Below, piece after piece: positions 20,302-25,240 of a stretch of 30,094 bases of DNA. The DNA is taken from IMG/VR virus record IMGVR_UViG_3300001341_000114, positions 1-30,094 of that record; one strand, 5' to 3'. Under the pieces are notes generated by a model. It was given only the letters and a program-made list of their open reading frames with translations. It was not told the origin of the DNA and ran no database searches. Origin of the DNA: a virus. The position numbers and the translations under genes are program-made. The first letter of the stretch is position 1, and every line of letters begins with the position of its first letter.

Positions 20302-21231
20302 ATGGCCATTCGCAGGGAACGAAAGCTTGCACTGACTGCCAAGATCGAAGTGACCGAAGGCACGGACAGTGTCCCGACAGCCGCTTTGAATGCCATTCAG
20401 GCAAACAATGCCACCATCACGCCGATCGCGGGTGATGAGGAAAACCGCGAATTGCTTCTGCCTTACCTCGGCAACCAGGGTGTGATCCTGACCGGGAACT
20501 ATGTGCAGATGGAATTCTCCGTCGAGGTGGCCGGCGCTGGCGCTGCCGGCACCGTTCCGCCCTATGGTGTTCTGCTTCGCGCTTGTGCCATGTCGGAAAC
20601 GGTCAATGCTGGCGTCGACGTTCAGTATGGGCCGGTGTCGGACGGCGAAGAGAGCGTCAGCATCTACTACAACGCCGATGGCGTCCGTCACGTGGCGCTT
20701 GGCGCTCGCGGCAATGTCAGTGTTGAGTTTGCCCCGAAGCGGATCCCGCGTTTCCGCTTCACGATGATGGGTCTTCTGGGAACCATCACCGACCAGGCGC
20801 TTCCGGCCGTCGACCTCTCCGGGTTTCAGACGCCTGTCGAGGTGTCCTTGGCCAACACGACGTTCTCGCTTCATGGGGCTCAGCGCATCAGTGAAAGCGT
20901 GTCGATCGATCTTGGCCAACAGGTCGAGCCGCGCCATCTGATCGGATCGGAGCGCATGCAGCTTACCGAACGCAGCGCGTCCGGGACCGCAGTCATCGAA
21001 GCGGACAATTTGGCCTCTGTGAACTGGTTCCAGATCGCGACGGCTCACACCTCAGCTGCGATGCAACTGGTTCACGGCACCGCTGCCGGCAACATCGTCC
21101 AGTTGGACGCGCCGGCTGTTCAGATCGGCCGTCCGTCTCAAGGTCAGACGCAGAGCATCATAAACTATTCGCTGCCGCTCATGTTGAAGCCAAGCTCTGG
21201 TGATGACGAGCTGCTGATCACGGTCAAGTAG
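20302..21231 (+). CDS. Major tail tube protein (siphovirus type)
   Basis: A 309-residue beta-rich protein following the tail terminator gene. It reads as a long-tail tube protein: KLALTAKIEVTEGTD near the start, QMEFSVEVAGAGAAG at about residues 70-84, PPYGVLLRACAMSE at about 90-103, and repeated strand patterns to the end. In myoviral Mu this place is taken by the contractile sheath (L) and tube (M), both absent here. The ribosome site AAGGAG (20287-20292) is good. It is one of the main reasons to predict a flexible non-contractile tail. Confidence 0.85.
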   Translation: MAIRRERKLALTAKIEVTEGTDSVPTAALNAIQANNATITPIAGDEENRELLLPYLGNQGVILTGNYVQMEFSVEVAGAGAAGTVPPYGVLLRACAMSETVNAGVDVQYGPVSDGEESVSIYYNADGVRHVALGARGNVSVEFAPKRIPRFRFTMMGLLGTITDQALPAVDLSGFQTPVEVSLANTTFSLHGAQRISESVSIDLGQQVEPRHLIGSERMQLTERSASGTAVIEADNLASVNWFQIATAHTSAAMQLVHGTAAGNIVQLDAPAVQIGRPSQGQTQSIINYSLPLMLKPSSGDDELLITVK

Positions 21232-21240
21232 GGGCGCACC

Positions 21241-21438
21241 GTGCCGAGTGTCATCAATTTCAACGACGCCGCATTCAAGATGCAGCTGCGTGAAAACGCG
21301 AAGCTGCTCGAAGAAAACAAGCGGCTGCGGGCAGAGATTGCGAGGCTCACTTCGGATCGCCCCTACATCGTTGGCTTTGTTGACGGGTGGGAGGCGGCGC
21401 ACGAGCCGCAACCCGAAAATGCCGAACAATCACTGTGA
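21241..21438 (+). CDS. Small coiled-coil tail-region protein
   Basis: A 65-residue protein with a GTG start nine bases after the tube gene stop. Residues about 14-41 are a leucine-zipper-like helix (AKLLEENKRLRAEIARL), followed by IVGFVDGWEAAHE. No family is recognised. The ribosome site is weak (GGGG at 21232-21235), so expression may depend on translation of the upstream tube gene. Position between tube and chaperone genes suggests an assembly or regulatory role. Confidence 0.55.
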   Translation: MPSVINFNDAAFKMQLRENAKLLEENKRLRAEIARLTSDRPYIVGFVDGWEAAHEPQPENAEQSL

Positions 21439-21459: not shown

Positions 21460-21846
21460 ATGAAATTCAAGATTACCGACACCTACCTTTTCTGGTGGCC
21501 CGTTGTTGTCCGCATGCCGGATCCGGAAAAGGCCGGCGTAATCATCGAGCAGAAGTTTGAGGCCCAGTTCGAGGCTTTGGACGAGGACCAGGCCAACGAA
21601 CTGGACGCCGCCTTCAGGAATCTGGAAACCGACGAAGAGCGGAAAGCCCATCAGCATGACGTTCTTCGCAAGGTGACCAAGAACTGGCGTGGCGTTGAGG
21701 CGCAAGGTGGCGGTGATCAGTCTTTCACCGAGGACGTGTTTGAGCTGTGCCTCAAGCAGAACTGGTTCCGGGCGGGCATGTATGAAGCCTATCGGCAGGC
21801 CATGAATGCCGAGGCACAGGGCAACGGCCCCACGGCAAAAAACTGA
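21460..21846 (+). CDS. Tail assembly chaperone, G-like part
   Basis: A 128-residue acidic protein between the tail tube and tape measure genes, the place of lambda G. It would coat the tape measure protein and help polymerise the tube. Features are EQKFEAQFEALDEDQANELD (about residues 29-48), a charged helix, and FELCLKQNWFRAGMYEAY near the end (about 97-114). TAAGGAG at 21443-21449 is a strong ribosome site. The last codons, GCA AAA AAC TGA, include the slippery heptamer A AAA AAC, so part of the ribosomes should shift -1 and make a longer G-T protein of about 254 residues. Confidence 0.88.
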   Translation: MKFKITDTYLFWWPVVVRMPDPEKAGVIIEQKFEAQFEALDEDQANELDAAFRNLETDEERKAHQHDVLRKVTKNWRGVEAQGGGDQSFTEDVFELCLKQNWFRAGMYEAYRQAMNAEAQGNGPTAKN

Positions 21847-21885
21847 AAGAGGCCGCACAGGCGTGGGCACATGCCTGTCGCGGCC
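21837..21885 (+). promoter_or_regulatory. -1 programmed ribosomal frameshift signal
   Basis: The slippery heptamer A AAA AAC (21837-21843) lies in the correct phase directly before the TGA of the G-like gene (21844-21846). After a seven-base spacer comes a stem-loop: GGCCGCACAGGC (21851-21862) pairs with GCCTGT (21873-21878) and GCGGCC (21880-21885), with one bulged C and a ten-base loop. The -1 frame is open from here to 22223. This is the canonical arrangement of slip site, spacer and structure. Confidence 0.85.
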
Positions 21886-22223
21886 ACTCCGATCCGTCCC
21901 GGCCGGCCGGCCTCGATCCCGATCTGGCGAAGGACTTTGAGCAGCTCAACGTGCGGGTCGACCCATCCGCGATCGAGACGGAAGAAAAGGCATTTGAGGT
22001 GTGGCGGGTGAACTGGAAGACGGTGACATCCTTCGTGACGCTCGAAACCCAATGGCGGGTCGTCGGCACACCGGCTGGCCTGACGTGGTTGGGCCTCGAC
22101 TATGCAGCAGCGGCTGCTGCGTTTCGTGGCCGCAGCGTGCGGTGCTGGCAGCGCCTTCTTTCTGAACTTCGCATCATGGAACACGCCGCCCTTGAAGTCT
22201 TGAACTTGGAGCGGCCCTCATGA
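21843..22223 (+). CDS. Tail assembly chaperone, T-like part (DUF1799), made by frameshift
   Basis: 126 codons in the -1 frame relative to the G-like gene, with no good independent start at its beginning; the first ATG-like starts are far inside (GTG near 21951). It reads LKEAAQAWAHACRGHSDPS and on, then the DUF1799 signature LETQWRVVGTPAGLTWLGL (in residues about 68-86). DUF1799 proteins sit directly before tape measure genes. By analogy with lambda G-T, this domain should only be made as a fusion after slippage at 21837-21843, giving a minor product that links the tape measure to tube subunits. Its stop overlaps the tape measure start (ATGA at 22220-22223). Confidence 0.8.
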   Translation: MKEAAQAWAHACRGHSDPSRPAGLDPDLAKDFEQLNVRVDPSAIETEEKAFEVWRVNWKTVTSFVTLETQWRVVGTPAGLTWLGLDYAAAAAAFRGRSVRCWQRLLSELRIMEHAALEVLNLERPS

Positions 22224-25200
22224 CCCAGCCGCTCAACATTGAAATGGTGGCCCGGCTCAACTCGGCCGGTGTGAAGTCCGGAGCGAAAGACGCCCGGCAG
22301 GAAATCAGTCGCATTGGGGACGCGGCCCGTGACACGGCCCGTGACATCGATGCGGTCACACTCGCTTCAAATGATGCGGCAAGAGCACAGGCAAACGCTG
22401 CCCGTGCCGGCAACCAGGCAGCTCAATTCACCGAGCAATATGGCTTGCGGGCAGCGAACGCCAACCGGCTGGCAGCCCATGAAGCGACGAACCTGTCTTT
22501 CCAGATGCAGGATATCGCCGTCAGTCTGGCATCCGGGCAATCGCCGTTTATCGTGATGGCCCAGCAGGGCAGTCAGGTCTCCCAGATCATGGGCAGCCGT
22601 GGTCTTGGCCAGATCCTGCCCGCGATCGCCGGTGCGATCGGCTCGATGATCAATCCGACAACGATACTGTTCGCCGGTCTCGCAGCCGGTGCCTATGCCG
22701 CGCAGGCCGCATTTCGGGCGATGCGAGGTGAAGTCGATAGCCTTGCAGACATCCTGGATGATCACACCGATCTGATCAGGCAGATCAAGGACGCTTACGC
22801 CGAAGCCGAGGATGGTGCTCGATCCTATGCGGCGGCATCCAGCGCGGCGCTTGAGCTTGACCGGGTCAACCAGGAACGCCGCGAACGTGATGCCTTGCGA
22901 CGGGAGTATAATGACTTCCTCGACGCGCTTGGTCCTGGTCAGGTTCAGCTGCAAGCGCTCGGTACCGCGACGGAGCCATTCAAGCAGGCAGAAGCCGCGA
23001 TCAAGGATTTGATCCGTTCAGCCGAGGAGGGTGACGCGGAGTTCTCCATTCTGCGTGAGCGATTGGCGGAAATCGCATTGTCGCCGGATCTCAGCAACCA
23101 ACAGCGCAGCTCCCTGTCATTCGTAACAGAGCTGACCAAAGCAGGTGAGAGTGCGGAAATTGCGCTCAAGGAGACGGCGTCCGGACTGGATGCGATCGGA
23201 AAGAGCTTCGACGATGTCATTCAGAAGACCAAAGAGTATCAGAGGGCGCTTGAGAAGCTCCAAACCGGAGATCGGACACGTGGCCGGCGCGACCTTGCGC
23301 GCGACGATTATCTCGACGCGATCGGGGCAGCTCAGGACACCCGCGAACGGATCCTGGTCGAGCGTGCCTTTCGTGAGCGTCTGAACCGGATAACGGACCA
23401 GGAGAACGCCAGCCGCATTCCGGTACCGCGTGCCCGGCCGGTTGACATCGATCGGGGATCCGAGGCGCGCGAGCTTCTGAGGACGCAAGAAGAGCAGATT
23501 GCGAAGCTGCGGCTTGAAGCGTCTCTGATCGGTCAATCAGATGCCGTGCGCCGGCGCGCACTGGCAACGCTGGAAGCTGAAGTCGAAATCCGCAATGCCG
23601 GGATCGATGCGCAATCTCGCGAAGCCGATCGGATCCGAGAGAACGCTGCCGCGATCGCGGATATGAATACCGAGCTTGAAGCCAGTCAGGAAGCATGGGA
23701 AAGCGTCAAGGCGACGGGCGAGCGCTCGATCGACACCTTGGTCGACAAGCTGTCTTCAGGTGACTTTGAAGGCGCTTTAAAGTCCATTGCATCGGACATC
23801 ACAAAGCAGCTGCTCACGCTCGGCGCGGCCAACCCGCTCAAGAATGCGCTTTACGGTTCCGGCCTACCGACGATCTCGGATGTGGGTGGCATCGGCGGGT
23901 TCTTCCAGAGCCTGCTTGGCGGCGGCCCGGTGGCGACCGCAAGCATGCAGGTGCAGGCGGCCACTGTCCTGGTCAACGGCGGATTGTCCACGGCAACCGC
24001 TTTTAACAACATCCCCGGAACTGGCGGATCCGCCCTTGGTCTTGCGGCCGGCAACGACAACGCGGTCAGCGCGCTCGCGAACCAGGCCACCAGCCGTCTC
24101 ACTGGCACTGCACCAACCGGATCCGTTGCCGGTCAGATCTGGAACTATTTCATCGGCAAGGGTCTGCAGCCACATCAGGTTGCCGGCATCATGGGCAACG
24201 TCTCGGCCGAGAGCGCCTTTAACCCGTTTGCGATCGGGGATGGCGGCAACGCCTTCGGTCTTTTCCAGCACAATGACCGACGCTTCAATCTGTTCGACTT
24301 CATTGGCGGCCGGAAGAACCTCGGCAACGTGCAAGGGCAGCTGGACTTTGCCTGGCACGAACTGATGACCAGCGAAAACCGGTCGTATCAGAACCTCTTG
24401 CGCAGCTCCAATGTGCGCGAGGCGACGGCTGCTTTCGGCGGCTTCGAACGCCCGCGCGGTTTCTCGTGGGGCAATCCGGAAGCCATGCACAACTGGACCG
24501 GCCGGCTTCAGGCAGCCGAAGAGGCGCTTGGAACCTTCGGCAACAACGTCACCAGCGCCACATCGGGCCTGACGCAGTTTGATAGTGGCATCGGCAAGGC
24601 CGCCAGCGCCCTGGTCAACGGCTCCGGCTCTCTTGCGGACACGGCAACCGCCTTTGTCGGCGAAACCCAGAACCTTGCCGGGTCCTTCACCAGCGGCCTG
24701 CAGAACGTGGTGAGCGGGATAGGTGAGGGTGTTGCCGGCGTTGGTGGCGGTGGCGGCGGCGGTGGCTTTGGTGGCTTCTTCTCGGCGATCCTGGGCGGGA
24801 TCGGAAGTATCTTCGGTTTCCAGCGTGGTGGCGCAACCGGCAACGGCTCCGATACCGATGTCAAAGGCCTCGTCCACGCCAATGAATATGTCTTCAGCGC
24901 GCCGGCCACGCGCCGGATCGGCGTCCGGGCACTCGACGCGCTCCACAAGGGCACGCTGCAGGGCTATCAGGATGGCGGCTTTGTCACCTCCTATGCGTCA
25001 CCTGTCTCGATGCCGGCAGCCAATGGCAACGCCATGAGCGCCGCGCCGGTCGAAGTGTCGGTGCACAACTATTCCAACGCGACGGTCGAAACCCGCGAGG
25101 AGCGCGATGAGCGGGGCGGGCGCAAGATCCGGTTCGTGATGTCCGAAACCGTTTCTGACGCGATCAACACGCCCGGTGGCGCGACCCAGCGAACCCTTCG

Positions 25201-25240
25201 CGAAAACTACAATCTCAGAAAACAGAGGGTCAGACGATGA
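22220..25240 (+). CDS. Tape measure protein with tail-lysozyme domain
   Basis: A 1006-residue tape measure that sets tail length and is ejected with DNA. The N-terminal quarter (about residues 90-165) holds the lambda H-like segment NLSFQMQDIAVSLASGQ and FIVMAQQGSQVSQIMG, then hydrophobic helices; residues about 180-540 are charged coiled coil. Residues about 635-770 form a phage tail lysozyme domain (GQIWNYFIGKGLQPHQVAGIMGN split, NVSAESAFNPFAIGDGGNAFG, QHNDRRFNLFDF), predicted to open peptidoglycan during entry. A glycine run (about 836-850) precedes LVHANEYVFSAPATRRIG (about 890-900), a typical tape measure end motif. It overlaps both neighbours by four bases. Confidence 0.93.
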   Translation: MTQPLNIEMVARLNSAGVKSGAKDARQEISRIGDAARDTARDIDAVTLASNDAARAQANAARAGNQAAQFTEQYGLRAANANRLAAHEATNLSFQMQDIAVSLASGQSPFIVMAQQGSQVSQIMGSRGLGQILPAIAGAIGSMINPTTILFAGLAAGAYAAQAAFRAMRGEVDSLADILDDHTDLIRQIKDAYAEAEDGARSYAAASSAALELDRVNQERRERDALRREYNDFLDALGPGQVQLQALGTATEPFKQAEAAIKDLIRSAEEGDAEFSILRERLAEIALSPDLSNQQRSSLSFVTELTKAGESAEIALKETASGLDAIGKSFDDVIQKTKEYQRALEKLQTGDRTRGRRDLARDDYLDAIGAAQDTRERILVERAFRERLNRITDQENASRIPVPRARPVDIDRGSEARELLRTQEEQIAKLRLEASLIGQSDAVRRRALATLEAEVEIRNAGIDAQSREADRIRENAAAIADMNTELEASQEAWESVKATGERSIDTLVDKLSSGDFEGALKSIASDITKQLLTLGAANPLKNALYGSGLPTISDVGGIGGFFQSLLGGGPVATASMQVQAATVLVNGGLSTATAFNNIPGTGGSALGLAAGNDNAVSALANQATSRLTGTAPTGSVAGQIWNYFIGKGLQPHQVAGIMGNVSAESAFNPFAIGDGGNAFGLFQHNDRRFNLFDFIGGRKNLGNVQGQLDFAWHELMTSENRSYQNLLRSSNVREATAAFGGFERPRGFSWGNPEAMHNWTGRLQAAEEALGTFGNNVTSATSGLTQFDSGIGKAASALVNGSGSLADTATAFVGETQNLAGSFTSGLQNVVSGIGEGVAGVGGGGGGGGFGGFFSAILGGIGSIFGFQRGGATGNGSDTDVKGLVHANEYVFSAPATRRIGVRALDALHKGTLQGYQDGGFVTSYASPVSMPAANGNAMSAAPVEVSVHNYSNATVETREERDERGGRKIRFVMSETVSDAINTPGGATQRTLRENYNLRKQRVRR

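Follow-up and report, generated by a model that had tools for sequence, protein, structure and literature searches.

Very probable programmed -1 frameshifting between the G-like and DUF1799 tail chaperone frames of a Mu-like siphophage, and evidence of selection on the stop codon abutting the slip site

Main finding

Two overlapping tail assembly chaperone frames of a Mu-like siphophage of the RcapMu type, one G-like and one T-like (DUF1799), are very probably joined by a programmed -1 ribosomal frameshift that would produce G and GT in a lambda-like manner. The observations behind this reading are the anatomy of the site, its conservation, selection acting on the -1 frame, a family-wide enrichment of structure downstream of the site and a likeness of the predicted fold. 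On this reading the correct gene model for the phage is one gene with two products and not two genes. Frameshifting in tail chaperone genes has long been known (reviewed in PMC5009743), and the present type has been annotated in RcapMu and published for KL1 (see below); the newer point is selection for the abutting stop.

Genomic context and anatomy of the site

The window, i.e. the whole stretch of DNA analysed, is a 30,094-base IMG/VR virus record that belongs by gene content to a Mu-like transposable siphophage, carrying a Mu-type transposase, an AAA ATPase, GemA, Portal_Mu, a Mu F-like protein, a Mu-like protease and a Mu-like major head protein. Downstream the genes are ordered as tail tube, G/T, tape measure with lysozyme domain, NlpC/P60 and J-like tip protein, and the G/T overlap sits between the tail tube and tape measure genes, with Pfam matches on both sides. 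The relevant features are:

20302-21231, plus strand: tail tube protein (Pfam Phage_tube_2, E=1.5e-15)
21460-21846, plus strand: G-like tail assembly chaperone gene, 0 frame, 128 aa, with ATG start, GGAG upstream and TGA at 21844-21846 (PHROG 569, tail, E=2.5e-12)
21837-21843, plus strand: A AAA AAC, a slippery heptamer of the X XXY YYZ pattern, in the reading phase of G (codons AAA at 21838-21840 and AAC at 21841-21843)
21844-21846, plus strand: 0-frame TGA stop directly 3' of the heptamer, an arrangement shared by nearly all distinct loci (see below)
21844-21850, plus strand: 7-nt spacer between heptamer and hairpin, stop included, read from the sequence
21851-21885, plus strand: predicted stimulatory hairpin of 15 bp (6 + 9 around one bulge) with a 4-nt loop, -30.5 kcal/mol
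21843-22223, plus strand: T-like part (DUF1799) in the -1 frame, 126 codons from CTG at 21843, stop TGA at 22221-22223
22220-25240, plus strand: tape measure protein with tail lysozyme domain (Pfam TMP_2 and Phage_lysozyme2)

The initial annotation had described the heptamer as lying in the right phase and adjoining the G stop, followed by a 7-nt spacer that contains the stop codon, and both points were confirmed. Bare AAAAAAC is not rare in the window (two seen versus 2.7 expected), but a random 30-kb sequence should contain AAAAAAC plus an abutting stop only 0.045 times per strand; a chance origin is removed altogether by the comparison with relatives.

Conservation of the heptamer among DUF1799 relatives

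Relatives were sought with the T protein alone in viral contigs, bacterial genomes and GenBank phages, and further ones came from the G alignment; nearly all loci were obtained by searches blind to the heptamer. The G search of bacterial genome contigs returned no match; the T alignment found matches there. When loci with a distinct sequence around the site were counted as distinct, all 117 with an assignable site carried the heptamer in phase, 68 as GGGAAAC and 49 as AAAAAAC, and nothing else was seen. Three loci were left out of this count: two run off the end of their contig, and L028 keeps GGGAAACTGA at the site but has an internal stop in T. The hosts covered include those of phages of Escherichia, Campylobacter (as labelled), Pantoea, Pseudomonas, Yersinia and Hafnia. 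A prophage of Labrenzia sp. DG1229 is a close relative (T, 79%). Reduction to loci with T identity below 90% gave a non-redundant set of 93 (58 GGG and 35 AAA), of which 91 have the abutting stop.

The rule was then tested on new data, an independent sample obtained by a Pfam PF08809 search of 299 genomes of the phylum, from which a previously seen Labrenzia prophage was excluded. Twenty-eight loci were identified in 23 genomes, and each of them carries either GGGAAAC or AAAAAAC in phase. On a T tree built without the junction residue, AAA and GGG have interchanged at least nine times, a rough count because the tree has few columns, with four interchanges forced by well-supported branches; no intermediate triplet between AAA and GGG was seen in the loci. 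The interchange alters the encoded residue (Gly to Lys) and leaves the ability to slip intact, as expected if slipping is under selection. Heptamer class does not vary in the family, whereas the abutting stop shows a strong preference and is non-obligatory. The earlier view that the split between the two parts is regulatory rather than a mutation is borne out by the retention of site, phase and heptamer class at the 117 distinct and 28 further loci.

The resulting family rule, RRRAAAC (where RRR is AAA or GGG) followed by an immediate stop and then a hairpin, replaces scattered single-phage predictions; a statement of a family-wide rule of heptamer plus abutting stop was not found in the openly searchable literature. 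The rule allows the annotation of missing or wrongly started DUF1799 genes; several records are without any T gene. In the records of ESCO41, HK639 and YP10S2 (L144, L145 and L146; E. coli and Yersinia phages), T is unannotated even though its open frame is there, as is the heptamer. In one genome (L176/L178) the DUF1799 gene has a further, incomplete DUF1799 frame behind it, which may be a duplicate or a broken copy.

Selection on the abutting stop codon

The 0-frame stop is the next codon after the heptamer in 115 of the 117 distinct loci and lies one codon later in the other two; in the independent sample it abuts the heptamer in 24 of 28 loci. With the fixed Leu and T residue 2 taken as given, synonymous codon use would place an abutting stop in 37.3 of the 93 non-redundant loci; 91 have one. 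The codons involved are unusual for these genes. All 14 loci with Arg at residue 2 encode it by AGA or AGG, as against 7% in the rest of these genes, and where the codon of residue 2 starts with G, Leu is encoded by CTA in 13 of 15 loci (3.3% elsewhere), giving TAG, while the remaining two have their stop one codon later. Probabilities based on codon use are too small because of shared ancestry, and the pattern recurs in separate lineages. These data are evidence of selection on the abutting stop, which is the newest element of the analysis.

As to what is selected, there is roughly an even chance that the stop has no role in slipping and only fixes a short G C-terminus after the last useful codon, or reflects a compact overlap. 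In agreement with this, an abutting stop is not strictly needed: in 6 of the 145 loci it is displaced downstream by 3 to 54 nt. However, a simple constraint for a short tail would more often tolerate stops one or two codons later, and the rare CTA and AGR codons are used exactly where an abutting stop requires them. A more tentative proposal, which we regard as possible but the less probable of the two, is that the abutting stop is itself part of the DUF1799 frameshift signal. It draws on an HIV-1 site studied in bacteria, in which a stop directly past the heptamer lowered frameshifting and made it responsive to RF2, a result read as E/P-site slippage (PMC4373837). By analogy, the Lys or Gly tRNA and the Asn tRNA might slip while occupying the E and P sites, at a time when the stop codon stands in the A site, and the GT:G ratio might be set by competition with release factors, tracking their availability in the infected cell. 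With a selected abutting stop present across the phages of many hosts, including E. coli phages, E/P-site slippage and release-factor competition become testable in a natural bacterial system. Four loci (L150, L164, L172 and L173) have the heptamer in place and the stop 54, 27, 9 or 3 nt later, and offer natural comparisons for the role of the stop.

The -1 frame and alternative explanations of the frame break

From 21786 onwards the -1 frame has no stop until the TGA at 22221-22223. Its 126 codons from the slip site had been called DUF1799-like, in agreement with the match to Pfam DUF1799 (PF08809; E=2.2e-12, 47.5 bits, gathering cut-off 26). Just past the junction, L1 of T is invariant and A5 nearly so. 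In codons 1-36 the pN/pS of the T frame, measured against L003, is 0.33, versus 1.24 and 1.39 for the other two frames; purifying selection on T is evident right from the slip site, ahead of any possible start codon.

It is very unlikely that T is instead a separate gene translated from an internal start, the heptamer being incidental. The claim that T has no start of its own proved nearly right, the sole ATG, GTG or TTG in T codons 2-40 being the GTG at 21951 (codon 37). This codon lies just ahead of the DUF1799 core and could yield a minor separate T product, and in the records of RcapMu and RcWaterboi T is a CDS of its own that starts internally. Nevertheless, no Shine-Dalgarno-like sequence was found at GTG 21951, T codons 2-40 are devoid of any start codon in 20 of the 93 loci, and only nine loci have one with such a sequence. 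An own start for T was rejected on this survey together with the protein-level conservation of the frame upstream of the GTG; the invariant heptamer class likewise speaks against it.

Transcriptional rather than ribosomal slippage on the A6 run is less likely still: slippage on A runs is known in bacteria, but six A are short for it, and in over half of the relatives the site reads GGGAAAC, on which polymerase slippage is unexpected. The chance that a recent indel or sequencing error split one gene is negligible, despite the homopolymer run at the break, and this explanation is refuted by the comparison with relatives, as a 6.4-kb stretch is the same in an independent record (IMGVR_UViG_3300001596_000098) and every one of the 117 distinct loci is broken at this codon, the majority having GGGAAAC and lacking a long run.

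The downstream hairpin

The window hairpin (21851-21885) is more stable than its shuffled counterparts (z -4.4 to -5.1, with 0 of 200 shuffles equally good), also when the shuffles preserve the protein (z -3.7). It had been described as a 12-bp stem with one bulge; stem and bulge were retained, and with 15 bp the stem is slightly better than stated. For the family, 45 nt starting 5 nt after the heptamer were compared with protein-preserving shuffles at the 93 loci. The structure at this position is more stable than the shuffles (mean z -1.27, 41% of loci at p<=0.05), whereas the same test at +60, +120 and +180 gave mean z values of -0.22, 0.20 and -0.19, with 8, 6 and 10% of the loci at p<=0.05. 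The DUF1799 family as a whole is enriched for hairpins at this distance from the heptamer.

The window stem is kept in four relatives, with the outer 6 bp present in five of five sequences. Covariation within this close clade is weak, comprising one compensatory pair further in, with most outer pairs invariant, so the case for the hairpin rests on stability and position. In some relatives the stem is much weaker (L003, z -1.6) or absent (L011 and L005), and the hairpin is therefore not universal. For frameshifts of the lambda G/GT kind, a stimulatory structure of this sort is usual but dispensable. Of the two elements that the initial annotation proposed to check in homologues, the heptamer is conserved; the stem is enriched family-wide but missing in single relatives. 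The strongest hairpin among the listed family members is a perfect one of 17 bp in L062 (1495-1560; -38.9 kcal/mol), 12 nt past GGGAAAC.

Signals of the dnaX type combine A AAA AAG with an upstream Shine-Dalgarno-like stimulator, whereas the window heptamer ends in C. A search for such a stimulator revealed no family-wide excess of anti-SD pairing (mean z -0.05), the value for the window being -3.1 kcal/mol.

Proposed mechanism, frameshift rate and protein models

From the observations above we infer that slippage occurs, along with its rate and the roles of its products. Most ribosomes would read ...AAA AAC TGA and release the 128-aa chaperone G. In a minority, stalled by the hairpin and perhaps also by the stop codon, the Lys and Asn tRNAs would slip from AAA AAC to AAA AAA, after which reading would go on with CTG AAA GAG... 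to give a GT fusion of about 254 aa (128 + 126) with the junction ...TAKN-LKEAAQ.... By analogy with lambda, G may coat the tape measure protein, and a few copies of GT may recruit tail tube subunits.

A AAA AAC had been considered the more efficient type of heptamer, which is true for mammalian ribosomes but not for E. coli, where it is a poor shift site in assays (PMC5009743, PMC4066793), although the tRNAs of the window phage's own host may differ. This weakness in E. coli, together with the abutting stop, suggests by analogy that the frameshift rate here may be low rather than high.

The AlphaFold (AF2) models of T and G are confident, with pLDDT values of 92.5 and 85.9, respectively. Foldseek matched the T model to predicted "tape measure chaperones" of Salmonella phage Shivani, Enterobacter phage F20 and Serratia phage Scapp (E 0.004 to 0.04, probability 0.98-1.0), and two of the matched models are of fusion length (277 and 236 aa). 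Neither profile search nor fold comparison found a relative of T or G among solved structures, and no Pfam match was found for the G protein. Matches to ribosomal protein L20 in the profile search of solved structures (E ~0.007) were taken as chance.

Comparison with known systems

The closest described systems are Rhodobacter phages RcapMu (gp49/gp50, NC_016165) and RcWaterboi (gp47/48), likewise Mu-like siphophages with the same gene order. They are homologous to the window in G (36%) and in the DUF1799 T part (33-35%), and in both the heptamer adjoins TGA, although it is G GGA AAC instead of A AAA AAC. In the RefSeq record of RcapMu the corresponding position carries the remark "potential -1 frameshift". 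In Burkholderia phage KL1 (gp18/gp19), GGGAAAC directly before TGA has been published (PMC3483164); KL1 is a different phage type with an extra gene ahead of the tape measure gene, and the likeness considered here is that of the slip site. At the chaperone preceding the tape measure gene, AAAAAAC and GGGAAAC have been reported for Caulobacter phages phiCbK (gp93/gp94) and CcrColossus, respectively (PMC3556154). These are alphaproteobacterial phages that differ from the window phage in being large and prolate-headed; no sequence match to the window was detectable in the searches run, and the window T model has a weak fold likeness to the CcrColossus chaperone.

Lambda G/GT, a low-level -1 frameshift of about 30:1 (PMC5009743), resembles the window in having two overlapping chaperone products ahead of the tape measure gene, but its heptamer is G GGA AAG. 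The tail-chaperone sets used for PRFect have their stops on average 26 and 36 nt away (PMC10885494), whereas in the window the stop abuts the heptamer.

Further observations on the surrounding region

A 65-aa ORF at 21241-21438, between the tail tube gene and G, has weak PHROG matches only and looks like a small insertion, because in L003 and L004 G follows almost directly after the tail tube gene. The PHROG families matched within 21460-22223 (phrog_569, phrog_680 and phrog_17368) are named "tail length tape measure protein", which is misleading for G and T of about 125 aa and has been copied into phage records. Finally, the TGA of T overlaps the ATG of the tape measure gene as ATGA (22220-22223), with GGAG upstream (22207-22223), and this ATGA is shared by L003 and L004. 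Shifted ribosomes would terminate exactly at the tape measure start, and translation of GT and of the tape measure protein may therefore be coupled.
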